The notes under the pieces are model-generated. The model saw nothing but the letters and a program-made list of their open reading frames with translations. It searched no databases and was not told the DNA's origin. Made by a program: the position numbers and the translations under genes. A stretch of DNA of 64,000 nt from Brachionus manjavacas (lineage: Eukaryota > Rotifera > Eurotatoria > Ploima > Brachionidae), in contig JAHQIY010000011.1 of NCBI GenBank assembly GCA_019054805.1, positions 1,493,001 through 1,557,000 of the forward strand, written 5' to 3'. The stretch's first letter is position 1, and each line of letters starts with the position of its first letter. Shown here piece by piece: positions 36,694 through 57,107 of this stretch.

Positions 36694-37169
36694 TTGATTA
36701 TTCAAAAATCAAACATTTTTTTATCAATTAAAAACTCATTTTTATTTTTAACTATATTAATATTCAAATAATGAGTTTTAAAATTGATAGGTATGTATAT
36801 TTAATGAAATGAGGGATTGTTTAAAAATAACTCTAGCTTCAAAAGTTAAACCAATAATTAGAAGGCTTAAAATAACTGATAACTAACAAATCAGCAAGTG
36901 AACTTAAGGGTGTGCATGATCAGTTATATAATTTCTTATGCATTTAACTTTTATCAGCATATGATCATCATTTTTCGTATTTCAACAAAAAATAAAAAAT
37001 TAAACCCATATGTTTTAAGCAAATATTTACTTAAACTACCAAATATTCTTTTTTTATTTGCTCAATTTTAATTTATCTCTTAAATTAAGATATTTTCATC
37101 TCAAAAGTATCTTCAAAAATTCATTCAAGCTATAGAAAAAAATTGTGCTAGTCTCGACCCAATATTGAA
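36694..37169. other. intergenic region
   Basis: No gene or RNA is seen. The sequence is A/T-rich. Confidence 0.45.
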
Positions 37170-37560: not shown

Positions 37561-37599
37561 GTAACTATTTTTTAAATCTTAATATTTTAACAAGTCTCT

Positions 37600-38249
37600 T
37601 CTAAAAAAATTCTTATTAAACTTTTTTTTTCAAAAATGTAATAAAAAATTAAGTATTGTTCTATTTTAAATTAATCAATTTGAATTAAAGGCAATTTTGT
37701 AATCCTGCAATTAAACATAGATTAATTGAAGTATTAACAACAGCATAGTGTGGCATCTCTAAGACAGGGTTAATAGATTTCGTAAATTTTTAATTTACTA
37801 AGATGCTCATAGTATTCTATACCAGCTCCAAGAACGCTTAGCCCCTAAATATCTCTAGGAGTAAAGCACAGTTGGCTTTTATTTTTTTTCAAATTCCAAG
37901 TCATGACTTTATTTTTGACAAATTATAAAATAAAATTATTTTAATTAATTAGAATAAGGTTTTTTCCTTCTTTTGAAAAATCGCTTACTAATAAAATTGC
38001 TTTTTTTCCTTACAAAATGCAACAAATTACAAAATATAGTTAGATAGTTAGAGCGAAATTTAAGAAGCAAATTAAAGCAATAGTTTCTTTAAATCTAATA
38101 TCGCAGTGAATTGAACTAAAATCCCGAATTTTCAGCATTTTCTTTGATAATTCAGACACCTTTTTAAGCGTATAATAATTTTACCCTTCAATAAAAACAT
38201 AAATACAAAGACACATTAATTGGGGTCTCCTACGTTATGCAATATTGAT
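37600..38249. other. intergenic region
   Basis: No gene is supported. A slightly richer patch near 37735-37880 does not translate into a recognisable protein. Confidence 0.45.
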
Positions 38250-39490: not shown

Positions 39491-39959
39491 TAACATGGAA
39501 AAGTCGTTAAATGGAAAGTTAATTCCTAAACAATTCAAAATTGGTAAAATTACGTTAATTTTTTATATCAAAAAAAAAATACAGAAAAAAAAAATAACAA
39601 CTGAAATTTCAAATATTAGTTTCAAAAATTTATTTAGTTAATTAGATTCATAAATGAAAATGACGGTAATTGGTTTAATCATTGATTAGTTCGTAATAAT
39701 TTTTATTCATAGCTAAAGTGGCATTTTTCTTTAATTTCTCTTTAATAATATAATAAGAAAAGTCAAATGTAAAAAAAAAAAATTCCTTACAACAGCATTA
39801 TTAATCGAATTATGAAAAGCATCATTGAACATTATCTGTTCAGTCAAAAATTATTAAGATAGCGATGAATTAAAAATTAATTATACTGTGTTATTTTTCT
39901 AAAAGAAAAAAAAGCAAAAAATGCAATTTATAAAGGAAATTTAAAAATTTGATATCAGA
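39491..39959. other. non-coding AT-rich stretch
   Basis: No gene or RNA is seen between the MITE region and the left arm of the inverted duplication. Confidence 0.45.
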
Positions 39960-40590
39960 TTTTTATTATATTAATTATATTTAAGATGCTTTAATTATTT
40001 ACAATTAGTTTTAAAACATAAATTAACCTGAAATTATTTTTTTATGCAAAACAAAATAACAAAATAAAAGTTAAAATTATAGAAAATAAAGTTTAAGTAA
40101 GTGATAAAAAAAATTGATAAGAACAACATTTATAAAAGAACTCTTATTATAATAAGAAATTATGGAGAATTAATTGATTAAAAGTGCAAAAAAAAGTATA
40201 AAAAAGAAGAAAAAATATAAGCTAAAGCATTATTGATAATTTGTGTCCATTTCATCAGTCACATTAAATTGAACATGCTGGTAAAGATCGTATTGTAGAT
40301 CCTCATCGGAAAAAAAATTGAGCAGATCAGGCTTATTGTTGTCCATTTCATCAGTCACATTAAATTGAACATGCTGGTAAAGATCGTATTGTAGATCCTC
40401 ATCGGAAAAAAAATTGAACAGATCAGGCTTATTGTTGTCCATTTCATCAGTCACATTAAATTGAACATTCTGGTAAAGATCGAATTGTAGATCCTCATCG
40501 GACAAAAAATTGAGCAGATCAGGCTTATTGTTGTCCATTTCATCAGTCACATTAAATTGAACATTCTGGTAAAGATTCTTAATTAATCTT
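39960..40590 (-). repeat. left arm of a large inverted duplication
   Basis: Reading outward from 40590 to about 39960, this arm matches 43459-43920 in inverse orientation. The match covers the 96-bp repeats, then GCACTTTTAATC, CATAATTTCTTAT, TGTTCTTAT and TTTCAGGTT, with indels and many substitutions. A further short match joins 40889-40965 to 43125-43190. The HDHD5-like gene lies between the arms. Confidence 0.7.
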
Positions 40591-40595
40591 TTCAT
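40230..40595 (-). CDS. four-fold 32-residue repeat protein or exon
   Basis: An open frame of 121 codons starts at ATG 40595 (MKRLIKN). It consists of nearly four copies of a 96-bp unit encoding LYQNVQFNVTDEMDNNKPDL then LNFLSDEDLQFD (N/H, F/Y and L/F variants), ending in DTNYQ and TAA. The repeats are acidic and hydrophilic; no family is recognised. The frame is conserved across units with mostly synonymous or conservative changes, which suggests coding history. The inverted counterpart at 43459 has a stop codon in one unit. It could be one exon of a larger gene, or a coding-like minisatellite. Confidence 0.45.
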   Translation of the reverse strand: MKRLIKNLYQNVQFNVTDEMDNNKPDLLNFLSDEDLQFDLYQNVQFNVTDEMDNNKPDLFNFFSDEDLQYDLYQHVQFNVTDEMDNNKPDLLNFFSDEDLQYDLYQHVQFNVTDEMDTNYQ

Positions 40596-40888
40596 TTTAA
40601 TCTTTTTTATGAAAAGATCGGTCCGGGCAGAGCCTTGGTTAATTTAATTATTGATATATGTTATTAATTATTTAAGAATTTATTTGTTAATTTTTGATTT
40701 TTGTTTGCTTTTTTAAACTTTTTTTAAGTGCTCCTTTATTTGAAAAGAAAATTTTACTAAAAAATATAGATTTTTTGCCGATAAATTAAATAAAAAATTA
40801 TAATTTAAAAAAAAAAAAAATATTTATTTCATGGAAAACATTTTAAAGTTTTAAAATTTAAAAATTTTTTTTTTTACAAAAATTAAAG
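40596..40888. other. upstream region of the HAD-hydrolase gene
   Basis: The missing first coding exon of the HDHD5-like gene should lie here or further upstream. An ATG at 40832 (MENILK) has no donor that keeps the frame, so I could not assign it. Confidence 0.4.
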
Positions 40889-42828
40889 AATACAAACGAA
40901 GTGAATCCAGGAGTTTTTATTGACATTGACGGAGTGGTTTTAAAAGGTGGTAGACCTTTTGAATGGTCCAAGAAAGCAATTCACGTAAATTGAATTTTTA
41001 AAATTTAAAATTTTTTATTTTCTAAAATCCAGGCCTTATGGGATAATAATATCCCATTTGTTTTTGTCACCAATGGAACCTACTGTTCTAAGACTCTGAT
41101 CGACACCTTAGAGAGTATTCTTGAATTGCCCTTTACAAACGATCATTGTGTTGTGGCTCCATCGCCTTGCAAAGCATTGACCGACTTTCACGATAAACGG
41201 GTTCTTGTTTGTTGTCAAAACGATTCTTATGATCTAATTAGCGAGTAAATAGTCAGGACTCCCTTGAGTTTGTGTTTTTACCAAAATTTACCTAATTTTC
41301 AATAATATTAAAAAAATTCAGATAGAATTCCTAATAAAATTTGTTTTAAAAATTTGGATAAATTTTTTGAAGTTAAAATAAATGCAGTTATTTGACTGTT
41401 TAAAAAAATAAAGCTATAAAGTTCAAAAATGTAAGGAAATCGATCTTAAAAATAAATTTTTGACAAAATTAATATTTCTGTTATTTTTAATGAAAAATTC
41501 ATTCGACTTTCAGTCATTTTTGAGTTCTCTAAGGCAAAATCAAGTCACATCTTTTACTTAAATTTTTATTTTGACTTTTATACAACTCTCTTGGAAATAC
41601 AAAAATATACTTAAAATTAAAAATGGCAAAAAATATTTGAAAAAAAAATTCAAGTAAAGTATTGGCAATTTTTTTCTTCTATTTGCGTAATTCTTAAAAT
41701 TTTTGGATTTTCTTAGAATTCTTTCAAAGTGTAATCTTTCATCTTGAAAATTAACAATCTATCTTTAAATTGGCGTAAATTTTAATAAAAACTTAAAATC
41801 ATCCAAATTAAAGAAATTGGAAGAATAATTTTTTTCTTTTTCTTAGACTTGGTTTCAAAGATTATTTGACTGTGCCAGAATTGGTCAATATATTTCCAGA
41901 TTTGGATTTTGTCGATCATGAACGTAGACACATGCTTCTAAAAAACCCGCTCACTGACGAACAAAAAAAACTACAAGCAGAATTTCGCCCGATTGAAGTA
42001 ATTTTACTTCTTGGTGAACCAATTAATTGGGAATGTGCCTTACAAATATTGCTTGATGTAATCATGACAAATGGTGATCCAAGAAAGCAATTTAAATTCG
42101 TACCATTTCCTCACTTGCCAATAATTGCCTGCAACAAAGACTTGACTTTCAAAGGCGCAGCAGCTTTGCCACGATTTGGTCATGGCGCTTTTCTAGAATG
42201 TCTAGAGACTTTGTACATGAAGGTGACTCGAAATGAGCTTGTGTATGAATATCTCATGGGTAAACCATATTTGATTACATACGAGTATGCCGCTGAGCAG
42301 ATTCAGAATTTGTCAAAAAATGGTCAGCGAATAAACAAGTTTTACATAATAGGCGATAATCCTGAGGTTGATGTACGAGGTGCCAACTTGTACAAAGAAA
42401 GTTTAACAGGAGAAAAATCAAATCGAGGATCTACAAAGACTTCAAGACGACAGTCTACAGTGGATTTCTTAAATCAAAACTTATTCAAGCCAGTTGAATC
42501 AATTTTAGTGTGTACTGGGGTTTATAATCCTCAGAGTGACATGCTTTATCATTTAAGAAATCTATTTGACAAATCCCTTAGACGAAGTTCTATCAATCCG
42601 GATTATTTATCAAATGAATCCGAGGGTATTACCTTGACTGTGCCTCAACCAATAATTCAAAAGGAGTCAAGTTCGAACTTTTTGGATGTTGAAACTTTGC
42701 AGCTAAAGGACGCTCTAAGTCGAAAGAATTCATTCATTAGCTATTTCGATAATCAATGCAATATTCCTGATGTAACAGTGGATAATTTAATGGATGCTGT
42801 TAATTATATAATAAATAGTTCAAAATAA
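40889..42828 (+). CDS. HDHD5: HDHD5/CECR5-like HAD-superfamily hydrolase (5' exon missing)
   Basis: Three exons are visible: 40889-40984, 41033-41244 and 41847-42828 (introns of 48 and 602 bp). All are GT-AG and in frame, giving 429 residues plus an unassigned N-terminus. HAD motif I is FIDIDGVVLKGG (nucleophile Asp and DxD), motif II lies in VFVTNGTYC, and motif IV is IIGDNPEVDVRGANL. Family-specific segments include LLLGEPINWECALQILLDVI, PHLPIIACNKDL, PRFGHGAFLECLE and SILVCTGVYNP. The order and length match animal HDHD5 (CECR5), a HAD protein generally regarded as mitochondrial; the substrate is unknown. A Ser/Arg-rich insert lies at about residues 280-300. The gene sits between arms of an inverted duplication; its first visible exon is partly copied at 43125-43190. 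Confidence 0.88.
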
Positions 42829-43124
42829 AAAATGTCTTAAGAGCACTTAAAAAATTTTTAAGAATTAATTAATAAAATTTCATTTACAGATTTTTATTTA
42901 GAATTATTAAAGCTGCTTTTTGTTTAAATGCAATAAAATAATTAAATAATTTCGTTTTCACTTTGAATTATCAATAATTTAAGAAAGTTAAATAATAAAG
43001 CATTTAAGAGACTAAACATTTTTCCTTAAATTTTTTTAAAATCCAAGAACGATGCAATAAGAGATGAGGATACTTGAAGTCAAATAAAACAATATGAAAG
43101 GTCAAGCAATTTTCATTCAAAAGG
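42829..43124. other. 3' flank of the HAD-hydrolase gene
   Basis: A/T-rich sequence with AATAAAAT-type polyadenylation-like signals near 42930. No gene is seen. Confidence 0.45.
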
Positions 43125-43190
43125 TCTACCACCTTTTGCAACCACTCCGTCAATGTCAATAAAAACTCCTGGATTCACTCTGTTTGTATC
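43125..43190 (-). pseudogene. inverted copy of the HDHD5-like motif-I exon
   Basis: The minus strand repeats 40891-40965, including an acceptor-like AAATAAG before it, and encodes DIDGVV with Ala for Leu next (GVVAKGG). Similarity stops soon after PFE. It is an isolated exon fragment in the right arm of the inverted duplication. Confidence 0.7.
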
Positions 43191-43458
43191 CTTATTTGAA
43201 ATTAAATAAAATTAAATTAATTTTATCAATTTTTAATTTTTTACATACTAATTTTGAAACTAAGTTTTTTTTCTTTTGAAATTTTTTGAAATTTTTAAAT
43301 TACGTTGTTTCATTAAAACTCAATACTTAAGAATGTTAAAATTTGAAATATAATCACGCAATTATATTTAGAAATGTAAAATAGAAAAAAAAACTTGCCC
43401 CTTAAAAAAAAAGAAGTAAACTAAAATCTGAAGTTAACTTATAAAATTTCTAAATCTT

Positions 43459-43713
43459 TACCAGAATGTTCAATTTAATGTGACTGATGAAATGGACAAC
43501 AATAAGCCTGATCTGCTCAATTTTTTGTCCGATGAGGATCTACAATTCGATCTTTACCAGAATGTTCAATTTAATGTGACTGATGAAATGGACAACAATT
43601 AGCCTGATCTGCTCAATTTTTTGTCCGATGAGGATCTTCAATTCGATCTTTACCAGAATGTTCAATTTAATGTGACTGATGAAATGGACACAAATAATCA
43701 ATAATGCTTTTTC
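43459..43713 (+). pseudogene. inverted partner of the 96-bp coding repeat
   Basis: Two and a half units of the repeat from 40230-40595 occur in the opposite orientation. The second unit has TAG where others have AAG (NNK to NN-stop), so the long frame is broken. Flanking homology continues to about 43920. Confidence 0.75.
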
Positions 43714-44195
43714 ATGAATTTTTTGAGCTTTTTTGTTCAATTTTTTGCACTTTTAATCGGTTAATTCAGCATAATTTCTTATTTTTTTTCTTATTCTTTT
43801 ACAATTGCTGTTCTTATTTTAACGTTAGAGTCATTTATTTTTTTTCTGAATAAAAAAATATTTTCAGGTTCATTTAAATTTTGAAACTAATTTTTTAATT
43901 ATTTAAGATTTTTAAATTTTTAAAATTTAATTAATAAAATAAAAATTTGATACTAAATTTTTAATTTAACTTACTAGATAATTAGCTTTTTTTCTTTAAA
44001 AACAATACCACAGTATGATTATTTTTCAATATTTCGAAATCCTAATATATTTCTATATTTAATTTTTTTCATATATTTTTAGTAATAATTTTTAGCCGGA
44101 TAATTATATTTTTTAACGTTTCATCTTTTTAACTCTTTTTAACAATTCAAGAAGTCTTTGTTTTTTACATGAATTGAACATTGGTTCTTAAAAAA
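43714..44195. other. right inverted arm continuation and AT-rich flank
   Basis: Homology to the left arm fades by about 43920. The rest is A/T-rich without features, up to the second MITE. Confidence 0.5.
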
Positions 44196-44488
44196 TAGTG
44201 TTGGGATCCGTACAAGCGGACACTTAACCGGCCAAAATTTTCAGAAACCGTGACCGTGTCCGCATTAGCCGGACAACCTTTAAGCGGGCGGTCTATTTTT
44301 TGGACCTCCAAAATACCAAATGGCCAAATGACCGCCCGCCAATAAGTTGGCCGGTTTTTTGGCCGCCCGTTTTTTTTAGACCGTTTAATTTGGCAGTCCA
44401 AAAAATAGATCGCCTAGCTGACCGGCCAAATGACCGCAAAAAACCATCCGTGTATTGGACCGGTTTGTCTTGACCGTATCCAACACTA
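44196..44488 (-). mobile_element. hAT-type MITE, copy 2 (293 bp)
   Basis: It has perfect TAGTGTTGG...CCAACACTA ends and perfect 8-bp duplications TTAAAAAA (44188-44195, 44489-44496). Its sequence is related to the MITE at 38930-39436 in reverse orientation (shared ATCCGTGTATTGGACCGG and ACCGTGACCGTGTCCG) but is internally shorter. Its own target duplication shows an independent insertion, not a by-product of the inverted duplication. Confidence 0.88.
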
Positions 44489-44796
44489 TTAAAAAACTAG
44501 CTTTAAATAAAAATATCAAACAAAAACTGATACATATTTTTTTTATTATTCATCTCATCAAACATTATTTTTTTTTAATTGAAAAATAAAACATAAATGT
44601 TGTTTTCAGTTCAATTTGCGGAATCGCACCTTATGCATATTTAAAAGTTTATCTTATTTTTTATTTGTAAATTCTGAATAAAATAAATTACTTAAAAATA
44701 ATAAGACTCTTAAATCTTTAAAACTAAATTATAATTGAAAAAAGATTTTGAATTTAATTAATTTTAAGGTTTAATTTATTCTTTTACTATTTTTAC
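44489..44796. other. intergenic region
   Basis: About 300 bp of A/T-rich sequence with no gene seen. Confidence 0.45.
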
Positions 44797-44925
44797 CAGC
44801 TAAATCGTAACAGCAGCTTTTCGACCAAAAGTGGCTTTAATTATTCTGAAAGATTTAAAAGCAGACTTTATGTCGAAGAGGATATTAGTTTTTGAAAACA
44901 GTGTTTATTTGGTCTGCTAGTGCAG
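44797..44925 (+). pseudogene. duplicated 3' end of the ARM-like gene
   Basis: This sequence matches 47097-47224: the last ~34 codons (LNRNSSFSTKSGFNYSERF and on), the TGA stop and about 30 bp of trailer up to the tRNA. Only a few bases differ (for example AACAGTG for AAAAGTG after the stop). The upstream coding region is absent, so it is a fragment duplicated together with the adjacent tRNA-Lys gene. Confidence 0.88.
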
Positions 44926-44998
44926 GCCCGGTTAGCTCAGTCGGTAGAGCGTGAGACTTTTAATCTCAAGGCCAAGGGTTCGAGCCCCTTATCGGGCG
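44926..44998 (+). tRNA. tRNA-Lys(UUU), copy 3
   Basis: It has the same 73-nt sequence as copy 1 by eye, with anticodon TTT. It is followed by AATTTTTTT, a Pol III terminator. It was duplicated together with the tail of the ARM-like gene (compare 47225-47297). Confidence 0.97.
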
Positions 44999-45354
44999 AA
45001 TTTTTTTCCCAAAAAAAAATTAAATTTTTTTTAATCTTCATTTTTGCCAAAAAATAATAAAGGAAAATTTTTTAAAAAAATTTCAATTTTCAATTTTTTC
45101 AATTTTTAATGAAGCAACACAACTTTTTGATAAATTTAATTTGAACAAAAATTTTTTTACTATATAGTTGAATAATTATCTTTATTTTATTTTTTTTATC
45201 ATTATTGTTCTTTTTATTTTTATTAATAAAAGGAGAGTTAATCAGTCTTAACAAGATAGGAGCACTAGCCTGTTGATTAACCTTGAAATTGAAAAATTTT
45301 CTTTTTTTTCTTTTTGTAAAAAAATATTAAAGGAAAATTTTTGAAAAAAAAATT
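44999..45354. other. spacer of convergent tRNA pair
   Basis: 356 bp of A/T-rich sequence. The last ~65 bp (TAAAAAAATATTAAAGGAAA and on) is shared with the segment before the tRNA at 50940, again showing segmental copying. Confidence 0.55.
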
Positions 45355-45427
45355 CGCCCGATAAGGGGCTCGAACCCTTGGCCTTGAGATTAAAAGTCTC
45401 ACGCTCTACCGACTGAGCTAACCGGGC
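45355..45427 (-). tRNA. tRNA-Lys(UUU), copy 4
   Basis: The same 73-nt gene on the minus strand, convergent with copy 3. The cloverleaf is intact and a T-run follows on its strand. Confidence 0.97.
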
Positions 45428-45847
45428 CTTACCATCCAACTTACAAATTCTCAAAATTTATTAATATCTAGGTTGGCAAATCATAATTTTCCTTATCTAA
45501 TATAATTATTAGAACAAACCCATTTAAAAGTTTAATATTAACCTTTTCGGTAGTTTTTCCTAATGAATCATATTTAAATAAATTTTATTCTTGATTTAAC
45601 TAAAACAAAAATCCTGAACCATTGTTTTTCCTAGAATTAAAATTTCTAAATTTTGAAATTTAATATCTTTCGAGTATAATTTATAATACTTTTAATTTAA
45701 AACACAGTAAGCAAGATAAAATCCTCGAGAGAGAGAGAGGTTCATTTTAATTACCAAAATCCTAATTTCAAGCCTTGTATAATTCACTTTTTCAGTTAAA
45801 ATTATAAAATTTAAATCCGTCTTTTATTTTTCCACAAGCTCATTAAT
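45428..45847. other. upstream region of the ARM-like gene
   Basis: A/T-rich with a short (GA)n run at about 45728-45740. No promoter element can be assigned. Confidence 0.45.
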
Positions 45848-47194
45848 ATGAACAAAATTTTTAAATTAACCAAACTTCCACATATCTCGGAAAATGTGGA
45901 GATTCAATCGGACCACAAGGACGACAATGTCACCTTTATAGAACAAGTCAACTTTTTGATATATCTAAAAAGTCCTTGGAAACTAATCAACAACTGTCCA
46001 GCAGAAACATTAAATTGTTTAAACCGAATAATAGACTTTAGCTTCAAGAACACCACATCATTCGACCATTTAAGTGAGGAAAAAAAAAATGACCTAATCG
46101 AAATTCTAATCGACTACTTTAAATACATTCACGAGTCATTGCATGAATCTTTTCAAAAATCATTTTCAAAAAAGTCCCCAAAAACCATCATTTTTGACGG
46201 ATTAACTCAAAACAAAATTCAAATTTTGCTCAAATTTTCCCTTATTATGTGGACATGGGCAGACAAATCGGTCGATTTTTGTACCAGAATGCATGAGACA
46301 AAATTTGTGCGGGTTCTATTTAAGTTTTTGAATGATTCCATTTTGGTGGAAAGCATTCTGAGCCATTTGAGCTCGAATGACATGTACCTCAACCTGGCTC
46401 TAAGCTACAAGTCATTTTTAGGCCTGGTTCACAATCTAAGCAAGCATGAACAGCTTTTTCCGGATCAATGGAAAGACACAAGTTGCATTAGCTGCTTGCT
46501 CAATCTGTCACACGAATTCCGGAATTTGAAATTTTTGGAAATTCGCATGCTAGTCTATTTTTCATTGATAAATTTGTCGAATGACCAAGCTGAATTGTCT
46601 GAGATTCGACAAGTGGTTGAAGATGTTGTCTATCTTATTTCAAAGTGTTCGGCAAAAATCGTTCTTGAAGAGGCAAAAATGAGACGGGTCTATAAAATAG
46701 AAAATGAGGGTTTAAAAGAAATAGCAGTTGTTTGTTCAAATGAGATTCTATGGCGGCTGACAGAACTGTTGAATTTTTTATTAAAGGCAGTTGACTTAAA
46801 TGAAAAGCTTAAGTATGACATTTATGAAGGCATGAACGGGAAAGTGTGCTTGTCTAGGATTTTGTATTACGGAAATATATTTGAAAAAGAACATGCTCTT
46901 AAACTTTTATGGAAATTAAGTATGGATGAATTTGTTGCCAATATGATTCGGAATGATTTGAGTCTTTACTCGTATTTGTTGGGTCTTTCCAAAAATCAGT
47001 TTAACAAAAATAAAACACTACTAAAATATTCAAATTATATTTTGTTCCTATTGGGTCCAAATGGTACTGCGACCAAAGTGGTCAGCATAAATCAGGAACT
47101 AAATCGTAACAGCAGCTTTTCGACCAAAAGTGGCTTTAATTATTCTGAAAGATTTAAAAGCAGACTTTATGTCGAAGAGGATATTAGTTTTTGA
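45848..47194 (+). CDS. ARM/HEAT-like alpha-helical repeat protein
   Basis: A single open frame from ATG 45848 to TGA gives 448 residues. The protein is almost wholly helical in pattern, with repeated Leu-rich amphipathic segments (for example LEIRMLVYFSLINLSNDQAE, EHALKLLWKLSMDEFVANMI, SYLLGLSKNQ). The LLWKLS and SLINLSND segments recall armadillo repeats. The last 40 residues are Ser/Asn-rich and probably disordered. There is no signal peptide, membrane segment or enzymatic motif. ARM arrays of this kind often precede a TIR or other effector domain, but none is present here. Its 3' end lies 30 bp from a tRNA-Lys gene and has been copied with it to 44797 and, inverted, to about 51013. The exact family is not recognised. 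Confidence 0.75.
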   Translation: MNKIFKLTKLPHISENVEIQSDHKDDNVTFIEQVNFLIYLKSPWKLINNCPAETLNCLNRIIDFSFKNTTSFDHLSEEKKNDLIEILIDYFKYIHESLHESFQKSFSKKSPKTIIFDGLTQNKIQILLKFSLIMWTWADKSVDFCTRMHETKFVRVLFKFLNDSILVESILSHLSSNDMYLNLALSYKSFLGLVHNLSKHEQLFPDQWKDTSCISCLLNLSHEFRNLKFLEIRMLVYFSLINLSNDQAELSEIRQVVEDVVYLISKCSAKIVLEEAKMRRVYKIENEGLKEIAVVCSNEILWRLTELLNFLLKAVDLNEKLKYDIYEGMNGKVCLSRILYYGNIFEKEHALKLLWKLSMDEFVANMIRNDLSLYSYLLGLSKNQFNKNKTLLKYSNYILFLLGPNGTATKVVSINQELNRNSSFSTKSGFNYSERFKSRLYVEEDISF

Positions 47195-47224
47195 AAAAAG
47201 TGTTTATTTGGTCTACTAGTGCAG

Positions 47225-47297
47225 GCCCGGTTAGCTCAGTCGGTAGAGCGTGAGACTTTTAATCTCAAGGCCAAGGGTTCGAGCCCCTTATCGGGCG
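47225..47297 (+). tRNA. tRNA-Lys(UUU), copy 5
   Basis: An intact 73-nt tRNA-Lys, anticodon TTT, 30 bp after the stop codon of the ARM-like gene and on the same strand. A T-run follows. It is the likely source context for copies 3 and 10. Confidence 0.97.
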
Positions 47298-47382
47298 AAT
47301 TTTTTTTTTTTAAATTTTCCTTTATTATTTTTTTACAATGTGAGAATTTAAAAAAATTTTAATTTTTTTTGGGAAAAAAATT

Positions 47383-47455
47383 CGCCCGATAAGGGGCTCG
47401 AACCCTTGGCCTTGAGATTAAAAGTCTCACGCTCTACCGACTGAGCTAACCGGGC
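47383..47455 (-). tRNA. tRNA-Lys(UUU), copy 6
   Basis: Intact and convergent with copy 5, with only 85 bp between them. This is the tightest inverted pair and could form a long cruciform. Confidence 0.97.
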
Positions 47456-47551
47456 CTGTACTCTCATACTAATAATTACAGTATTTTATTTTTTAATTAT
47501 TCAAATCATAGACAATAACTTGTTAATTCAAAACTCTATTTGGTTTTTTAT

Positions 47552-47860
47552 TTAATTTACATTTAAAAATTTTAATAAATTTAAGACAATTTTATTTTTT
47601 ATTTTCAAAATTAATTGTAAAGCATTAGAGGCCAGACCACACCTTAGGCCTATAGTTTCCAAGCTAAAATCTATGAATGATTGAATAGATCCTGAATAGC
47701 TTGATTCTGAGATCTTAAAAGTTTCAAGCAAATGATGATGAATCAAATTTTGAATTTCTTCCAGTGTTAAAACAATGATTGAAAAACTTTCTAATTTCAC
47801 AAGCCATGCTCCAAGTGTTTTTTTTGGATTTGTTAACTCACACGCTCTTTATGGCAAAGA
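47552..47860 (-). CDS. hypothetical small protein or exon
   Basis: The minus strand is open for about 100 codons ending at TAA near 47552, with no ATG near its upstream end. It encodes WLVKLESFSIIVLTLEEIQN and later FIDFSLETIGLRC. The composition is more protein-like than most A/T frames, but no motif or splice partner is recognised. It could be an exon or a chance frame. Confidence 0.2.
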
Positions 47861-48035
47861 CTAGAATAGAAAATGCTAAATTTCGTGCTAATATCCACAT
47901 GAGCCATCCACACTGCTAGAATCGGCTTACGATTTTGACAATAAAATCAACTATAAAAATGCACTGAAAATTGATCATTCTTTATAATTTTTTGTCAAAC
48001 AAAAAAAGATAAAGCTTAGCATTTCAAAACTGAAA
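47861..48035. other. upstream region of the coiled-coil gene
   Basis: Short A/T-rich region. No specific element is recognised. Confidence 0.4.
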
Positions 48036-49409
48036 ATGATGTACCAAATTGAAAACCAACCAACTCAATTGAAAGAGAAAATTCAACAATCTGTTGCTCA
48101 AATCCCAAGAATGATGGAGCACACCCAAAAGAGATTCCCAGTCTCTCCAATTCCAATTGACGAAAAACACCAAGAGTTCAACTTGGAAAAGAGAATCGAA
48201 AAGGAAGACTATGTCAAGCAAATAAAAGATTTGGTCGGTCAAGTCCAAAACATGTTGCTCGGTCACGAACAACAACAGACCAAAGCCGAACACCAAGCTT
48301 TGTTGAGACATGTCCGCGACATCCAAGCCCAAGTCGACACCATCAGACAACCTGAAACAATCAAGACCGAAAAAATTCAAGAGCCTGTCAAGAAAATCAG
48401 CCAGGAACTCATTGGTGAGCAAAGCTACCAACCAAGAACTTATGAGACCACCCCAATTGAATTGATGGCTGAGCCGATCAGAGCTGAACAAATGGACAGA
48501 AAACTCTGGATCGAAAAGCGAAAACAATTGATCGAGAAGTTGATCCAAAAGATCCGAGTCTTCGAAGATCTATTGGTTGAGAAAATGTACGAATTTGTGC
48601 ACCAAAGCATCAAAATGGAACAATTCCACTTCGATTTGGAAAGAGAATTGTTCGAGCAAATCAAAAAGAGATTTGCTGAGTTGGAAGAACATTTCTACAT
48701 GTACGGCTATGAGCAAGAGTGCCATCAACGTCACATCAAAATGTTTGTTTTGTTGAGAAAACAAGTCAAGCAAATTGAAGAGCTCTTTTACCAAATCGCT
48801 GGCCAAACCACTGATTTGAGAGCTTTGAAGGGAAAAGAACAATTCTACCGTGATCAATACCAATATGTGTTGGAGAAGGTGCGCGGATTCAGAGCTTTGT
48901 TGCAAGAAGTCTTCTACTACACTTGCCCAGAGAGCTGTGAGCCAAGAACCGAGAGATTCGAGACCACTTTTGCCATCGAGCCATTGACCAAATTGTTCAA
49001 CTTGATCAGCTTCCCAATGTTCTATGATGAAGAGGAAATCTTCGGCAGACAAATCAAAGAGACCGAAAAGACTGCTCTATTGAGAAAAGAGTTGGAAGAA
49101 ATCAAATTGGCCAAGCAAGAATTGGAAATGAGATTGTACGAGACCGACCGCAAAGTCGAAAAATTCAAGCGTCACATTGAGTTGTTGGAAAAGAGCCCAA
49201 AGACCGAGCAATTCGAATACAAGCCACAACAACAAATCAGAGCTGAATTTGTTCAATACACCAAGCCAGAAGAGGAGCTGATCAAAATTAGCTTGAAGCC
49301 AACTCAACAACAAACATGGTACACCACTGTTGAGCCAAGACAATGGACTGGCAAATTCTATGAACAAGAACAACAAATTCAAAGACAACCAATCACCAAA
49401 TATTTCTAA
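48036..49409 (+). CDS. Gln/Glu-rich coiled-coil protein, probably highly expressed
   Basis: ATG at 48036 (CTGAAAATGATG) to TAA gives 457 residues without introns. It is rich in Gln, Glu, Lys and Arg. Heptad-like helical stretches lie at about 55-110, 155-235 and 330-395 (LLRKELEEIKLAKQELEMRL). Pro-rich linkers (FPVSPIPI, ETTPIELMAEPI) separate them, and there is a Tyr/Gln-rich tail ending in KYF. It has no signal peptide, membrane segment or enzyme motif. Codon use is strongly biased (TTG for Leu, AGA for Arg, CAA for Gln, AAG/AAA for Lys) and G+C is higher than in the flanks, the style of an abundant structural protein. The FAS-derived gene downstream has the same bias and Gln richness. The family is unknown; a filament or cortical role would be a guess. 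Confidence 0.8.
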   Translation: MMYQIENQPTQLKEKIQQSVAQIPRMMEHTQKRFPVSPIPIDEKHQEFNLEKRIEKEDYVKQIKDLVGQVQNMLLGHEQQQTKAEHQALLRHVRDIQAQVDTIRQPETIKTEKIQEPVKKISQELIGEQSYQPRTYETTPIELMAEPIRAEQMDRKLWIEKRKQLIEKLIQKIRVFEDLLVEKMYEFVHQSIKMEQFHFDLERELFEQIKKRFAELEEHFYMYGYEQECHQRHIKMFVLLRKQVKQIEELFYQIAGQTTDLRALKGKEQFYRDQYQYVLEKVRGFRALLQEVFYYTCPESCEPRTERFETTFAIEPLTKLFNLISFPMFYDEEEIFGRQIKETEKTALLRKELEEIKLAKQELEMRLYETDRKVEKFKRHIELLEKSPKTEQFEYKPQQQIRAEFVQYTKPEEELIKISLKPTQQQTWYTTVEPRQWTGKFYEQEQQIQRQPITKYF

Positions 49410-50321
49410 ATTTTAGTTTATTACTCACATTTTAGCCTTTTATATAGCATTCATATTTTAAAATAAAGTTTTATTTTAAAAAATTTTAATTTTCAAAAAT
49501 TATCTATCTCAAAGCACAACAAAATAGCTTGTGATTAAATTGTTAAGCTTGTTGAATAGTCACCACCTTTTTGGCTATTTTTAGAGACCTTTATAAATTA
49601 TTTGCTTAAATTTAGCTTTAACGGGATAAATAAAATCAGAAAAAATTAATTAATTCCGAGTTTGATTTTAATAGGTGAACTACAAACTTTGCAAAAATTT
49701 TCATAGTAAAGAAAATATGATATGAATATAGCAAATGGGTAGTGGAATTTTTCCGATTTATGATGTACATTTTTATCCGACAACTGATTCTAACACGTGT
49801 CTAGAACTTAAAAGGTCCTCGATAAAGAAAACTTATTATCAATCACTTAAAAAACAAAATACTCAATTATTAAAATTTTTAGCTTTTTATTTTTAAGTTG
49901 GCGTCACTACGTTAAATTCATTTTTGAAATAAAATTGAAAATTATGAATATTATTTGCTTTTAAATATGATCTCAAAATACCATAAATTGGCAAAATTTA
50001 GCCCATTAGCTATATTAACATCATAATTTTTAACTTTAAAAATTTTTGCAAAAATTTATGATACACTGATTGAACAAATTTCTTGAATTTTTGGATATAG
50101 AAAAAACATCTTTATTTAAAATTTAAAAAAGTAACTGTAAATGTTATTGAATATTACCACATGAGTTTAAGTGGGAAATTTGTTCGACATCTGAGCCCGA
50201 AAAAAAAGCATTAAACAATCTGAATCTGAAATTCTACTTCTAATGACAGCGTTTTATCGTACCATAATCTAAATAAAAAAAACTTTATTACATTATAATT
50301 TACAAAAAAATTGAAAAAATT
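49410..50321. other. intergenic region
   Basis: There is an AATAAAGTTTT polyadenylation-like signal at about 49461. The remainder is A/T-rich; the word AATAGGTGAACTACAAA near 49670 relates to the 34.6-kb repeat. No gene is seen. Confidence 0.5.
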
Positions 50322-50361
50322 CGCACGATAAGGCCAAGAATTCGGGCCCCTTATCGGGTGA
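50322..50361. pseudogene. collapsed inverted tRNA-Lys remnant
   Basis: The sequence TCGCACGATAAGG is joined to GCCAAGAATTCGGGCCCC and TTATCGGGTGAA. This is the 3' end of a minus-strand copy abutting the 3' half of a plus-strand copy, with several mutations. It looks like a convergent pair whose centre was deleted. Confidence 0.7.
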
Positions 50362-50441
50362 ATTTTTTCTTCAAAATATTATTCTTTAATATTTTTCCAA
50401 TATGGCAATGTAAAAATTTTTTTATTTTTTGAAAAAAAATT

Positions 50442-50514
50442 CGCCCGATAAGGGGCTCGAACCCTTGGCCTTGAGATTAAAAGTCTCACGCTCTACCGAC
50501 TGAGCTAACCGGGC
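50442..50514 (-). tRNA. tRNA-Lys(UUU), copy 8
   Basis: Intact 73-nt tRNA-Lys on the minus strand; same sequence as the others by eye. Its plus-strand partner is the collapsed remnant at 50322-50361. Confidence 0.96.
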
Positions 50515-50796
50515 TTAATTTTCTCTGCTTTTAAAGTGCTTTCTATTAATAAAACTCAATAAAATCTTTCAATTTTTAAATATAAAGTTTTAAAAATTTT
50601 AATATAATATATGCTTTAATGGTCAGAAAATTCGAATAAATTAATTAGATGAATTTGTTGAAATGATTTTTACAACATGGTCAAAAAAATAATATAAAGT
50701 TTAAATTTTTTGAGTATTTAAAGACTGTTCATGGATTAAAGTTTAGTTGAGTAAATAGTTTCATGTATGAATTTGGTAAAATACAGAAAAGACAAG
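50515..50796. other. spacer
   Basis: About 280 bp of A/T-rich sequence, no features. Confidence 0.5.
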
Positions 50797-50854
50797 GCCC
50801 AATTAGCTGAATTGGTAGAGCGTGAGACCTTTAATCTCATGGGCAAGGGTTCGA
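50797..50854 (+). pseudogene. truncated tRNA-Lys pseudogene
   Basis: It starts GCCCAATTAGCTGAATTGG and retains D and anticodon arms (loop CCTTTAA, so U33 is lost). It breaks off inside the T arm at GGGTTCGA, after which a T-run begins. The acceptor stem cannot form. It is the plus-strand partner of the intact copy at 50940. Confidence 0.85.
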
Positions 50855-50939
50855 AATTTTTTTTTCAAAAAAAATCAAATTTTTTTAAATTTTCATTTTG
50901 TAAAAAAATATTAAAGGAAAATTTTTTGAAAAAAAAATT

Positions 50940-51012
50940 CGCCCGATAAGGGGCTCGAACCCTTGGCCTTGAGATTAAAAGTCTCACGCTCTACCGACTG
51001 AGCTAACCGGGC
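50940..51012 (-). tRNA. tRNA-Lys(UUU), copy 10
   Basis: Intact 73-nt tRNA-Lys on the minus strand. Upstream of it (51013-51090, minus) lies an inverted copy of the ARM-like gene's 3' end. Confidence 0.97.
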
Positions 51013-51090: not shown

Positions 51091-51880
51091 TTTGGTGAAA
51101 TCTAATAAAAAAGAATTTGTAATCGTTTTTGTTTGCCTAATAATTTCTCTTAGAACAATGTTTAAATTTAAAGTATCATTTAATGGAAAGTTTTAATTAA
51201 AAAGTCTAGAGACCATTTGATTTCAAGTTTTCAATTTAAAATTAATTAAATTACTATTCTTTGTTCATAGGCTTAAGCATAATTTTATTTAAAAATGAAA
51301 ATTTTATTTTTTTTGACTAATTTTTTAAATTTGTAAAAGTGATAATTATTGAATTTTCTATTCAAAATTAAGCTTAAGATTGATCTAATAATTTTGTAAT
51401 TTTAAGTGAGAAAACTTCGTAATTAGAAAAAAAATTAAAGTTGAAGCGAGATATTCTCTCAAGTAAGTTTGAACATTTATTTTTAGTAATAAAATTTTAT
51501 TTGATTTCAATTTCAAGTGATTTCATGATTTTTGTTTCATTCGAAAGAATTTGATTTAAACTTGTATGTTTCAAATACTAGATAGTGCTATAATGCAGCG
51601 TGTTCAAATTTAACCAAAGTGCTAGATTTCCATTCAAAAACTTTTTCATGTGGGATTTAAATAAAGAAAATCATGATATTTTTAGACAATTATCAAAAGT
51701 TTTTAATATTTCCAAATACCTAATCAAAATTTGCTATAAAAGCACTGAATAAAATTTTAAATTTAATTTTATTTAATTTTTCAATAAGAAAATAGATAAG
51801 CCAAACGTAAAAAAAATTAATTTGATCTTTTTTAGAAACCTAACTTATTGTTATTTTTATTTATTGCTATCTATTCTAAA
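51091..51880. other. upstream region of the FAS-derived gene
   Basis: A/T-rich, no gene. An AG after a T-run at 51834-51835 could be a 3' splice site of a 5' UTR intron just before the start codon at 51881. Confidence 0.4.
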
Positions 51881-54800
51881 ATGTATGCCAATAATTGCAA
51901 AGCTTTATCAACTGAGATCCAAGGTGTTGGTTCAAATCAGCTTGTGAGTAATGGTAAAAAGGAATGTGTAGATATTCCATGCTGCCATAAAACAATGGTC
52001 CAAGCTGCAATAAATCAATCGCAGGAACCAAAAGAAATAGGTATTTGGGAACAACCAGAAATTGTGTCCGAATTGGTTAAATTGCCACGTGTGTTGCCAT
52101 TTTATGCCAAGAGCAGACAAACTTTAGAACAAGTAATGGACTATGTTGAACAAAACGCAAGTGATTTGACTGTCCAGTCTCTATTGAACGCTCATTCTAC
52201 CTACAGTCCAAAATCGTTCCCATTCAGAGGATTCTGTTTGATCAATGGTGAACAAAAAATGAGACAAATCGAACAAGTCGATGATTTGGTTCAAAGACCA
52301 GTTTGGTTCTTGTTGTCTGGTATGGGCGTTGAACAATGGAGATGTGGCATGGCCAGAGAAATGATGAAATTGGACTCGTTCCGATGTTCGATGATGAGAT
52401 CATGCGAACTGTTGAAACCATACGGAATCCCGTTGATGCAATTGATCACTGGCGAACAACAAGACAAACAATATGTGATGACCGGTGTTGAATCATATGT
52501 TTACATGACAGCGATTCAAATCGCTTTGGTCGACTGTTTGAGATTGATTGGCATCAGAGCCGATGGCATGATTGGTCAATCAGCTGGTGAATTGGTGTGT
52601 GCCTACATTGATCAATGTTTGACACACGAGCAAGCTTTGATGTGCTCGTACTACTTTGCCAATTGTTTGCAACAAGCTCAAAATTTGCCACAATCGTTGA
52701 TGGCAGTTGTTGGCGACTTGACATGGGATCAATTGAGATCGAGATGTCCAAGCGGTGTTGTGCCAGTTTGCTTCGATTCAGTCGACCAAGTTGTAATCAC
52801 TGGTCCAGTTCAATTGGTCAGAGACTTGTTGAGACAATTGAGATTGGAAGGTATCTATGTTAGAGAAATAGAAATTCCATCAGCAGCAGCAGCAACAACA
52901 ACAACAACAACAACAACCATCAATGCTGGTCAAAATTCAACTGGTGTTTTTGTTCAAAACTTTGGTCTCGTTCACACTCAATACTTGGTCGACATGTTGC
53001 CACTATTGAGAAAGTGTCTAGAAACATTGAACATTGTTCCGAGAACAAGATCGTCCAAATGGATCTCGACTTGTTGTCAACCAGAACAATATTCGCTTGG
53101 TCTCTATCAAACAATGAGCATTGACTATTTGTGCAAATTGTTCACTACACCGGTCATGTTGCAGCAATCTTTGATGCAAGTGCCCAAGAGTGCCATTTTG
53201 ATCGAAATTTCGCCAAGATCTTTGATGCAAACTTTGTTGAAAAAAAGTTTAATTCAACCAACTTTGATGATGACCAGCACTGGCTGGAAAACTCCAACTG
53301 CCAACATGCCAACCATTATTCCATTGATGCCAACCACTTTTGGCATTAGTGGTCAATTTGTTTTGGAACACTTTTTGGTCCAATTGGGCCGACTCTATTT
53401 GGAAGGTGTTGAATTCGATTGTGTGAAATTGTTTGTACCATTCAAATTGTGTCCAACTGTTTATCCAGTGCCAGTCGAACAAAAAGTTTTGAGCCTTTTG
53501 TCTCAGTGGAACATTCAACCAGAACAAATGTCATACATTGTGAGCAAACAAGCAATTGGCAACAGTGTTGAACAAGTGATCATGAATGCCATCAATTCAA
53601 TGAGCATTAACACTGATTTACAAAGTGTCACATTTACTGTTGATGTTGAATCGTTGTTGGAAAAAGAGTCCTATTTGTTGAACCATCAAATCAACGGACG
53701 TGTCTTGTATCCAACCACTGGCTATTTGTACTTGGTATGGAAAGCTTTGGCTCAATTTAGACAACAGCAACAAACTGTTGTCGGACCAATCTGTTTGGAC
53801 TCAGTATTTGGCCAAGCATGTGAATTGGAACAATTGCCACCAGTTTGCTTTGAAAATGTTCAAATTCATCGTGCCACTGTTTTGCGTGAACAAGCTCAAC
53901 AAGTTGTCATTGTTCCACAAAACAAACGTGTCCTATTCAAAATCAACTATCAGCCATCAACTGGTCTATTTGAAATAGTCGAAGGCAAAAATTTGATTGT
54001 CAACGGAAAAGTGTATGTACCAGCTGGTCTTGACTTTGTCACTCCATTCAAAAGCCAATGGGAAAGCCAAGTCAGATGCAATTTGGTCGTTCCACAAGAA
54101 CAAATTTACACCCAGTTCAAACAATGTGGCTACGAATTGATTGGCGAATTTCAGCCAATTGTTAGATCAAATGTGACTGGCACTCAAGGCGAACTTTTGT
54201 GGACTGGCAAATGGATACCTTTCTTGGACTCGATGTTGCACATGAACTTTTTGGCTCAACAAAAACAACAAACAATTGAGTGCCAACAAAAAGGTGGTCT
54301 CGTGTTGCCAACTAGAATTCGATCAGTTAGAATCAATCCAATTGAACATTTGATTAGAGCTGAAAAATTTGTCACTTTGCCTGTATTGCACGATTTGTAC
54401 ACCAACAAGACTGTTTGTGGTGGCATCGAAATAACTGGCATTCAAATGACTCCAGTTGTTTTGCCAAAAGATCAATTCAACCCAAGCATCATCACTGAGA
54501 CAATTGCCAACACTTATTTGCCAACAATCAACTCAACCGCTTTTCCACTTGTTGAAAATCAACCTCAATCACTTGGTATCAGCCAAGTTAAATCAACCAC
54601 AGCAGCAGCCACATTGCCACTAGTGAGACCAACTTTTGTCAACAACTGGACCATTGGTCAAACATGTGTTTTAAATTCGAGATTAACTCATTTGATCGTT
54701 GGCGCTTTGGACTGTGACTTTGGTCTTGAATTAGCTCAATGGATGGTCCAATATTGTGGTGTCAAATACCTTGTATTGACCACTCAACGAGTGAACACTG

Positions 54801-56347
54801 TCGAGCCAGTTGTTTTGAATGCTCAACAAAGCCAAAAGTTGAGATATTTGCAAAACGAATTTGGCTGTCAAATCAAATGTGTTTCCACATTGGACTTGAA
54901 CGATGAGACCGAATGTTTGCTTTTGGTTAGACAAGCTTGCCGCATGACTTCGCACTTTGAGGCAAAAATTGGCAGCATTTTCCACTTGGGTGGTCTATTT
55001 GTTGAACAACCACAACAAGGAATGACTTTTTCGGTCAAATCGTTGAGCCATTTGGACAAGTACACCAGAAATCAAACAATCATGCCAGACTATGGCCTAT
55101 TTGTTGTATTCAATAGAAGCCAAATGACCACTGGTGTTCAAACTGCTGCAATCCAAAAGATGATCGAAGGAGTTTGCGAGTCACGCAGACGTGAATGTGG
55201 TCGACATGCTTTGCTCGTCGACTGGATGGTTTTGATCGGCACTGGTGAACAAGTCCAAGTTCCAGTCGAGTACAAAAAATTGATTGTCAGATTGGAACAA
55301 ATGTTGGTGCAATCTGTGCGAATTCAATTGCCAGCTGAGTTGCAACAAATGCCATTTTTCACTTTGAGAGTGCCAGAAGTACAGACTGTTGGCGTTGAAC
55401 AAACCAGCGAGCTTGTCAACAAAGTTAGACGACAAGTCCAAGAAAGACCAATGATTTTGATGGCACAAAAGTGTGTTGAACAATTGAACAATGTTGAATG
55501 CGTGAATGGTCAATTGCCATTGTTTGTTGTAATGCCAATCGAAGGATCAGTCAGCTACATTAGAACATGGGCTCAACAACTCAAAGTTCCAGTGTTCGGT
55601 CTTCAATTCACCCAAGAATGCTTGAGATTCGAAACTGCTGAACAATTGGCTCAATTCTACTGGCAACAAATCGAAAGAGTGGTTCCACATGTTGAAAGAG
55701 TTCACTTGGTCGGCCACACTTTCGGAGTTCCAGTTGCTTTTGAAATGGCTTCGAGACGACCACAACAAGTTGTTTCATTGTGCTTGTTGGACTCTGGTTT
55801 GAGTCAAACATTTTTGAATGGTTTTGTGTTTGGCGTCGAGAGTGTTTGTGAATTTGACGGTTTGTTCAGATTTTACCAACAATTTGTCACTCCAGCTGTT
55901 AGACTCAGTGTTGAACAATTCTACCAAATGTTGGCTCAAATACCAACCTTTGACGAACGTGTCAAATTTGTTGTTGGCAAAGTTGTCGAACAATCTCAAT
56001 TTAGCTTCGACTTGGTCGATTTGGAAACTGCTGTTCGCTCGTACGTTCGCTACATGATCATTTCATGCAAATACGTGCCATGCCAACCGTTGAGATTGAA
56101 CAGAATTGTTGTCGTCAGACCAAACATTGTTCCAACAATCAAATGCCAGCCATGGGAAATGATCTTCAGTCAACAAGAAACAGTTGATCAAGAAATGGTC
56201 GAGAAACTGTTCCAAGGATTGAGACAATACGTTAATGGCAGACTACAAGTTCACTTAATTGATGGTGAACAAAAAACTTTTTTCATGGGAGAGAGTGCCA
56301 CAAAAATTGCTTCAATCTTGAACAGCTTCTTGGCAGCTGAATTCTAA
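51881..56347 (+). CDS. fatty-acid-synthase-derived multidomain pseudoenzyme
   Basis: ATG at 51881 to TAA gives 1488 residues with no intron or frame break. The domain order follows animal FAS. About residues 60-120 match the post-KS linker (ending FPFRGFCLING). The acyltransferase (about 130-480) keeps GQSAGE (nucleophile Ser234), but the partner His is Arg446 (ISPRSL). The dehydratase keeps His602 in NHQINGRVLYP and Asp783 in PFLDSML. The KR-like region (about 930-1130) has lost the glycine motif (VGALDCDFG, residue 941 on) and the catalytic Tyr. The thioesterase has Thr1280 for the nucleophile Ser (GHTFG) and Gln1464 for His. KS, ER and ACP (no GLDSL motif) are absent. An Ala/Thr tract from a trinucleotide repeat lies near 52880-52920. 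The intact frame, Gln richness and biased codons suggest an expressed, probably structural or binding protein, not a lipid synthase. Confidence 0.9.
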   Translation: MYANNCKALSTEIQGVGSNQLVSNGKKECVDIPCCHKTMVQAAINQSQEPKEIGIWEQPEIVSELVKLPRVLPFYAKSRQTLEQVMDYVEQNASDLTVQSLLNAHSTYSPKSFPFRGFCLINGEQKMRQIEQVDDLVQRPVWFLLSGMGVEQWRCGMAREMMKLDSFRCSMMRSCELLKPYGIPLMQLITGEQQDKQYVMTGVESYVYMTAIQIALVDCLRLIGIRADGMIGQSAGELVCAYIDQCLTHEQALMCSYYFANCLQQAQNLPQSLMAVVGDLTWDQLRSRCPSGVVPVCFDSVDQVVITGPVQLVRDLLRQLRLEGIYVREIEIPSAAAATTTTTTTTINAGQNSTGVFVQNFGLVHTQYLVDMLPLLRKCLETLNIVPRTRSSKWISTCCQPEQYSLGLYQTMSIDYLCKLFTTPVMLQQSLMQVPKSAILIEISPRSLMQTLLKKSLIQPTLMMTSTGWKTPTANMPTIIPLMPTTFGISGQFVLEHFLVQLGRLYLEGVEFDCVKLFVPFKLCPTVYPVPVEQKVLSLLSQWNIQPEQMSYIVSKQAIGNSVEQVIMNAINSMSINTDLQSVTFTVDVESLLEKESYLLNHQINGRVLYPTTGYLYLVWKALAQFRQQQQTVVGPICLDSVFGQACELEQLPPVCFENVQIHRATVLREQAQQVVIVPQNKRVLFKINYQPSTGLFEIVEGKNLIVNGKVYVPAGLDFVTPFKSQWESQVRCNLVVPQEQIYTQFKQCGYELIGEFQPIVRSNVTGTQGELLWTGKWIPFLDSMLHMNFLAQQKQQTIECQQKGGLVLPTRIRSVRINPIEHLIRAEKFVTLPVLHDLYTNKTVCGGIEITGIQMTPVVLPKDQFNPSIITETIANTYLPTINSTAFPLVENQPQSLGISQVKSTTAAATLPLVRPTFVNNWTIGQTCVLNSRLTHLIVGALDCDFGLELAQWMVQYCGVKYLVLTTQRVNTVEPVVLNAQQSQKLRYLQNEFGCQIKCVSTLDLNDETECLLLVRQACRMTSHFEAKIGSIFHLGGLFVEQPQQGMTFSVKSLSHLDKYTRNQTIMPDYGLFVVFNRSQMTTGVQTAAIQKMIEGVCESRRRECGRHALLVDWMVLIGTGEQVQVPVEYKKLIVRLEQMLVQSVRIQLPAELQQMPFFTLRVPEVQTVGVEQTSELVNKVRRQVQERPMILMAQKCVEQLNNVECVNGQLPLFVVMPIEGSVSYIRTWAQQLKVPVFGLQFTQECLRFETAEQLAQFYWQQIERVVPHVERVHLVGHTFGVPVAFEMASRRPQQVVSLCLLDSGLSQTFLNGFVFGVESVCEFDGLFRFYQQFVTPAVRLSVEQFYQMLAQIPTFDERVKFVVGKVVEQSQFSFDLVDLETAVRSYVRYMIISCKYVPCQPLRLNRIVVVRPNIVPTIKCQPWEMIFSQQETVDQEMVEKLFQGLRQYVNGRLQVHLIDGEQKTFFMGESATKIASILNSFLAAEF

Positions 56348-57107
56348 ATTAGTTATCAACGATGTTTGGTTTCTTTTTAATAGTATTTTATGATTTTTAG
56401 TTGGTTTTTTATTTTTTTTATTTGAAATTTTTATTTTTATTTTTCAAAATAAACATTTTTAACTTAGCGAATTTTTTTTTAATTTTTTTTTTTTTTTAAT
56501 CAGCACCAATTAATTTTGAAATTTTTTTTTCAAGCTCAAATTAGATCACAAGATTAGATAATTTACTTTTAAAATCCTTAAGTAAGCAAGCATAAATTGA
56601 ATCACTATTTAATTAAATAAGAATAAATTTAAATAATATTTTTGCGCTAAACAAAAAATAAGATAGCATCTTTATCGAAATAAATTAGCAATTTTTTCAT
56701 TTTTTAAAAAATGAAAAAATGTTTTAATGTTGTACCATAAAATTTTTAAAAAAATTTAATAATTTTAAAATCGAATTTTCTAGTCTATTTTCTAATCAGC
56801 AAAATAAACTCAATGCTCTTGACTGTGACTTGTCAGTTATTCTTCTCTAATTTTTAGATAATTTCTAAATATTTTAAATAAAATTTAATAGAAATTAATT
56901 TTTCTTTAATTTAACAAAAAGACATTATTTGTTAAATGCGATTTTCATTTTTTAATTTTCTAACTCTCTAGTCAAGATAAAATCTCAATTGATGAAAGTG
57001 TTTTTGATTTTTCAAAAATATCATGAATTAAATTTCTCTTTTCTATAATTAGACTCTTTAGCAATTTTTTATTATTTTGTCTTAAAATCAAGCAGGAGGA
57101 CTAATGT
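56348..57107. other. intergenic region
   Basis: AATAAACATTT near 56449 is a likely polyadenylation signal of the FAS-derived gene. The rest is A/T-rich without genes. Confidence 0.5.

Follow-up and report, generated by a model that had tools for sequence, protein, structure and literature searches.

A 64,000-nucleotide stretch of the genome of the rotifer Brachionus manjavacas (contig JAHQIY010000011.1, positions 1,493,001 to 1,557,000 of the forward strand), designated here the window, encodes at positions 51881-56347 (+) a relative of the animal type I fatty acid synthase (FAS) that, judged by its residues, is half dismantled rather than fully so. In this protein, designated pseudo-FAS, the ketosynthase (KS), enoyl reductase (ER) and acyl carrier protein (ACP) domains are absent and the catalytic residues of the ketoreductase (KR) and thioesterase (TE) are lost, while the acyltransferase (MAT) and dehydratase (DH) each retain a catalytic dyad. 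Fatty-acid synthesis requires KS, two reductases and ACP; because KS, both reductions and ACP are missing or broken, pseudo-FAS as encoded could not elongate a fatty acid alone. We put at about even the chance that it is an intracellular structural or scaffolding protein descended from a duplicated FAS of the Brachionus lineage.

Reading frame and catalytic residues

An open-reading-frame check found 51881-56347 (+) to be read through without a stop for 1488 codons, the terminal stop included, just as an earlier note on this DNA had claimed; the coding sequence is a single exon, and relatives share the layout. That note also listed a linker, acyltransferase, DH, KR-like and TE regions in FAS order, and Pfam and PDB matches bear this out. 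Pfam scored the acyltransferase at 129.3 bits, the thioesterase at 34.1 and DH_N at 27.1 (cut-off 27); the KS C-terminal extension, PF16197, reached 19.7 bits, under its cut-off of 33. A PDB sequence search matched human and pig FAS with expect values (E) of 8.5e-119 to 2.5e-112, the alignment running through MAT, DH, KR and TE in that order. A remnant of the KS-MAT linker occupies residues 66-119 (52076-52237), the PDB alignment starting at residue 66. The MAT-like domain (about residues 142-525; 52304-53455), the DH-like domain (about 586-857; 53636-54451) and the TE-like domain (about 1199-1485; 55475-56335) were each delimited by Pfam, PDB search, residue alignment and Foldseek, and the KR-like region (about 933-1123; 54677-55249) by the last three, all on the forward strand. 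Read by eye, the N-terminus has no hydrophobic signal sequence.

Neither KS nor ER gave a Pfam match in the frame or a tblastn match in the 64-kb window, and an ACP with a phosphopantetheine Ser is absent both from the frame (Pfam, residue alignment) and from the window (tblastn), in agreement with the earlier note. When the full-length FAS sequences P0009 and P0010 were searched by tblastn against the window, matches were confined to the MAT-DH, KR and TE parts of the frame, the sole exception being one 37-residue match outside it with E 0.30. Exons for KS, ER or ACP elsewhere in the window, the finding that the earlier note said would count against its view, are ruled out by this search.

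Catalytic residues, including all letters quoted here for the window protein (P0001), were read from an alignment of that protein with 13 of 45 database matches. In the MAT-like domain, Ser234 (52580-52582) and His365 (52973-52975) align with the catalytic pair, given as mammalian S581 and H683 in PMC6954729, where R606 is described as contacting the extender carboxylate. This malonyl-binding Arg is lost: at its position the window protein has Phe259 (52655-52657), P0004-P0007 have Leu or Ile, and P0008 has Thr. The nucleophile motif GHS has become GQS, and the GMGxQW loop contains two one-residue insertions. The earlier note had identified the MAT His as Arg446, which is ruled out, as Arg446 sits at the His of the IAPHAL motif and the catalytic His is His365, still present; what the domain has lost is the malonyl Arg. 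Among altered sequences covering the sites, the catalytic His is present in nine of nine (seven in the residue alignment plus P0048 and P0014), and so is the Ser (six in the alignment plus P0048, P0014 and P0051). The DH residues His602 (53684-53686) and Asp783 (54227-54229) are likewise both retained, and this pair is present in P0001 through P0008. The assertion that only the DH pair remained was correct as to the pair and wrong as to "only".

The KR-like region has Cys945 in its glycine motif and Asn1078 in place of Ser, and the catalytic Tyr is deleted, so that the KR motifs are gone, as had been claimed. A second alignment, used for the invariant positions below, differs at KR: its glycine column has Asp instead of Cys945 and its Tyr column has Thr, neither of them the functional residue. 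In the TE-like domain, Ser is replaced by Thr1280 (55718-55720) and His by Gln1464 (56270-56272), the substitutions first read from the sequence, and Asp1304 is kept. Orthologs with restored catalytic residues were sought, and all six close relatives (P0002-P0007) show the same Thr, Asp and Gln in TE and lack the KR Tyr. Both domains are very likely catalytically dead.

At positions invariant among ten FAS sequences taken as functional, the window protein keeps 46 of 67 in MAT (69%), 26 of 33 in DH (79%) and 21 of 52 in the KR-like region (40%); TE, with few such columns, keeps 10 of 12. Alignment of P0012 and P0014 at DH and at some KR and ACP columns varies between alignments and is not meaningful there. 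The phrase "catalytically dismantled" thus fits KR, TE and the vanished KS, ER and ACP, but total loss of catalysis is unsupported because the MAT Ser-His and DH His-Asp pairs are retained. AlphaFold models of the two halves of the protein have mean pLDDT (a per-residue confidence score) of 72.9 for the first and 73.8 for the second. By Foldseek, the first half matches human MAT (2jfd, 2jfk) with target-normalized TM scores of 0.86-0.89 and human DH (8g7x) with 0.87-0.89; the second matches the human FASN thioesterase with TM scores of 0.74-0.82 and, more weakly, the human modifying region (8eyk, E 4.6e-7). As predicted by these models, the MAT, DH and other FAS folds persist.

A family of altered synthases under apparent constraint

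The best database match, "fatty acid synthase, partial [Brachionus plicatilis]", shows 91% identity over 73% of the query, and the search of other proteomes that the earlier note proposed recovered conserved Brachionus-type relatives, P0002-P0007, with 58-91% identity to the window protein. Four of the six, P0004-P0007, begin with MYA as the window protein does, have the same C-terminus and lack KS, ER and ACP; P0002 and P0003 lack their N-termini. The frames of P0004-P0007 occupy 96-99% of their contigs, which is what one would expect of assembled transcripts, though no source labels them so.

Constraint was assessed with a protein-level proxy, not a ratio of nonsynonymous to synonymous substitution (dN/dS), under an assumed AT-rich mutation model with 200 neutral simulations per relative. 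P0002 differs from the window protein at 84 of 1085 aligned residues, and these changes have a mean BLOSUM62 score of +0.36, against -0.35 (standard deviation 0.18, maximum 0.27) in the simulations. P0003, P0005 and P0007 likewise lie above every neutral simulation, making four of the four relatives tested. Simulated divergence to P0002, itself free of stops, introduced a mean of 7.8 stop codons (minimum 0), and the simulated minima were 6, 35 and 28 for P0003, P0005 and P0007. Changes relative to P0002 pile up in linkers, with 272 of 280 residues identical in DH and 44 of 64 in the linker that follows. The pattern suggests that purifying selection maintains pseudo-FAS.

The biased codon usage mentioned in the earlier note is also evident. 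The effective number of codons (ENC) of the frame, 37.5, is the second lowest among six open reading frames (ORFs), four others in the window having 47.6-52.0; Leu is encoded by TTG in 76% of cases, Pro by CCA in 89% and Gln by CAA in 92%. We infer an abundant, highly expressed product.

A profile search returned 97 matches and added P0048, P0051 and others to the family, whose architectures are diverse. P0008 has MAT, DH, a KR-like region, an ACP-like domain with Asn for Ser, and TE, and contains TGVYP 14 times. P0048, which carries YPGEY repeats, has a KS-like domain with Lys for Cys, a MAT with both dyad and Arg, a DH with Glu for Asp, a KR that keeps its Tyr, an ACP with Thr for Ser, and a TE with Gln for His. 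In P0014, a KS-like domain with Leu for Cys and a MAT retaining both dyad and Arg are followed by a long Gln-rich stretch that replaces the middle and contains TVEPKQWT repeats, and then by a TE with Gly for Ser. P0051 consists of a KS-like domain with Ser for Cys and a partial MAT, and P0012, from B. plicatilis, of a pseudo-KR, a KR-like region and a TE with Thr. There is no DH in P0014 or P0012. The gene model of P0012 may be chimeric, since its opening 30 residues are almost a copy of a segment of P0002. Because the TE His is replaced by Gln in P0001-P0008, P0048 and P0014 and by Asp in P0012, loss of TE activity may be ancestral to the family.

In a TE tree of 21 sequences, all 11 altered ones form one clade (support 100/98) beside three Brachionus-type FAS sequences (joint support 100/98). 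In a MAT tree of 24 sequences, the nine altered ones form one clade (93/94), joined with Brachionus FAS at 92/89; the composition of four altered sequences deviates from the model in this tree. An earlier MAT tree of 27 sequences, from which P0022, P0026 and P0028 were removed to give the 24, groups the same nine (91/94). P0052 and P0053 were considered as members and rejected: P0053 keeps the KS Cys, P0052 begins past it, and in the tree the two cluster with the FAS of insects. The two trees support an origin of the family by duplication of a FAS gene, either within the lineage of Brachionus or in a more ancient monogonont; sequences other than P0002, P0009 and P0012 are presumed to come from monogonont rotifers.

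Composition has shifted too. Relative to the intact FAS P0009, over 1330 aligned positions, the window protein is depleted in Ala (49 versus 89), Asp (32 versus 60), Lys (50 versus 86), Asn (46 versus 67) and Ser (77 versus 102) and enriched in Gln (120 versus 74), Val (144 versus 92) and Pro (63 versus 37); P0005 and P0007 show a similar shift. P0047 shows a slight excess of coiled-coil periodicity (11% of windows across residues 151-400, with 1.5% of shuffles as high, a weak signal); P0104, P0105 and the central part of P0014 show no excess. A TVEP[KR]QWT stretch common to P0047 and P0014, with E 2e-4 pairwise and 0.003 among 16 sequences, is suggestive only.

What the protein may do

The earlier note concluded that there had been selection for a new, probably structural function. 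Orthologs, codon bias and the protein-level signs of selection bear out the first half, that the gene is maintained; a structural role is plausible, given the repeat insertions and domain replacement in relatives and the codon bias. After duplication of a FAS gene, KS, ER and ACP would have gone and the KR and TE residues been lost, with the MAT and DH folds and dyads kept. The product would be an abundant intracellular building block or scaffold of several domains, self-associating through its folded FAS domains, which Gln/Val/Pro/Thr-rich linkers would join, and the MAT and DH pockets that survive may hold CoA esters or acyl groups without converting them. As a guess, it would sit naturally in the rotifer integument, in its cytoplasmic skeletal layer. 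We favor a scaffold, at the even chance stated above, because of the codon bias, the repeats and domain replacement in relatives, the drift in composition and the lack of an N-terminal signal sequence. More speculative, and in our judgment rather unlikely, is the extended proposal that the whole family became a bulk protein of the cytoplasmic skeleton, its chemistry stripped stepwise, its domains dropped or replaced by repeats, and its MAT acyl-enzyme site perhaps binding or attaching acyl groups.

Several observations weigh against a scaffold. A pure scaffold would not have to keep the catalytic dyads, or the majority of FAS-invariant positions, in MAT and DH, yet pseudo-FAS keeps them. Long repeats are absent from the window protein itself, and in the related proteins tested coiled-coil periodicity is absent or weak. 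In PMC6768451, a 981-residue FASN is reported with a Ka/Ks of 33.4 between two lineages of B. calyciflorus; if that FASN belongs to the pseudo-FAS family, a ratio above 1 would speak against constraint.

A reduced enzyme, with MAT and DH still active, is a possibility to which we give clearly less weight, though more than to the other alternatives below. The MAT would be acylated by acyl-CoAs other than malonyl-CoA, the DH would hydrate or dehydrate CoA esters, or both would act in trans on the ACP of the intact FAS, with KR and TE serving as scaffold only. The MAT pair in nine of nine altered sequences, the DH pair in P0001-P0008, the better conservation of MAT and DH than of the KR-like region at FAS-invariant positions, the close match of both predicted domains to their human counterparts, and the standing of DH as the domain most conserved relative to P0002 all fit such an enzyme. 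Against it, there is no ACP in cis, the GHS motif and GMGxQW loop are altered, P0048 has Glu for the DH Asp, P0014 and P0012 do without DH, and the Arg606 position is substituted in P0001 and P0004-P0008. In PMC6954729, octanoyl transfer by mouse MAT carrying the R606A mutation was about 700-fold lower in kcat/Km, so an enzyme without the Arg is not simply a broader one.

The presence of an intact FAS (P0009) in the same lineage, together with the many pseudoenzymes that regulate active relatives (PMC5201418 gives an example), would suit an improbable third role, that of a regulator pairing with FAS subunits through DH or linker surfaces and holding back or placing the enzyme; but a regulator would need far less protein than the codon bias suggests, the protein lacks KS, which forms the main dimer surface of FAS, and relatives differ widely in architecture. 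A decaying pseudogene, or a gene some of whose exons are missing, is the least credible explanation, very unlikely despite a possible 3' splice site ahead of the ATG (TTTTTTAG, 51828-51835) and a window that ends 7.6 kb 3' of the gene, since P0004-P0007 share the start and layout, no KS, ER or ACP match occurs in the 64 kb and the protein-level selection test, with its stop counts, speaks against a pseudogene. Gene editing in a rotifer has reportedly been published (PMC10395877), which makes the preferred reading, a scaffold, testable.

Surroundings of the gene and comparison with known systems

The window is AT-rich, with 20-41% G+C in 2-kb bins. An AATAAA at 56448-56453 (+), read from the sequence, is a possible polyadenylation signal for pseudo-FAS. 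Upstream of the gene, at 48036-49409 (+), lies an intronless 457-residue Gln/Glu-rich ORF with an ENC of 34.2, a stronger codon bias than that of pseudo-FAS. It has no Pfam match above cut-off and shares 96% identity with the B. plicatilis protein BpHYR1_029794; seven homologs were found, both named ones from Brachionus, and the product is possibly another abundant rotifer-specific protein. TATAAAA, followed after zero to two bases by GCACTGA, occurs at 47952-47967 and 51735-51748 (+), 84 and 146 bp ahead of the start codons of these two codon-biased genes, the latter copy being a possible promoter element of pseudo-FAS. The window has these two matches and 100 shuffles have none, for a motif chosen by eye after it had been seen; with three mismatches allowed, 14 matches against 16.1 expected are not above chance. 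Elsewhere are eight tRNA-Lys(TTT) genes (36235-51012), six of them forming three closely spaced inverted pairs whose flanks are shared; a long inverted repeat (40117-40577 and 43453-43817; 364 nt, 90%) whose arms contain 96-bp tandem copies; Gypsy-like retroelement ORFs (9419-14800, +; gag/pol and integrase, read from translations), two pol ORFs overlapping in different frames; and BTB and macro-domain ORFs (28765-29535 and 31599-32276, +).

Among the literature matches listed, with subscription papers mostly outside the scope, we found no description of a family of the pseudo-FAS type and no paper tying FAS-like proteins to the rotifer integument or lorica. PMC7721884 refers, for rotifer eggs in diapause, to FAS transcripts that may belong to the true enzyme or to the pseudo-FAS family. 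The B. plicatilis records P0002 and P0012 are named fatty acid synthase despite lost TE catalytic residues. Because public records are so named, rotifer lipid-gene counts, and studies of selection or expression built on the FASN label, may lump pseudo-FAS together with the real enzyme. Pseudoenzymes are common; the point of interest is a megasynthase turned into a lineage-specific protein family, and such dismantling domain by domain is, as far as searches of these matches show, undescribed.

Compared with animal type I FAS (FASN; PDB 2vz8, 8vle), pseudo-FAS has the linker, MAT, DH, KR-like and TE regions in the same order, is alignable over most of its length and shares the MAT and DH dyads, but it is 1488 rather than about 2500 residues long, lacks KS, ER and ACP, and has lost the KR and TE catalytic residues and the MAT extender Arg. 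In both the MAT and the TE tree, the functional proteins nearest to it are the intact Brachionus FAS proteins (P0009 of B. plicatilis, P0010 and P0011), to which it is 34% identical and which, unlike it, keep the catalytic residues checked. Like pseudoenzymes generally, it combines conserved folds with lost catalytic residues and is apparently kept by selection. It departs from the usual pseudoenzyme in that whole domains have been stripped from a megasynthase, several architectures coexist in one animal lineage, and the dyads of MAT and DH are kept.

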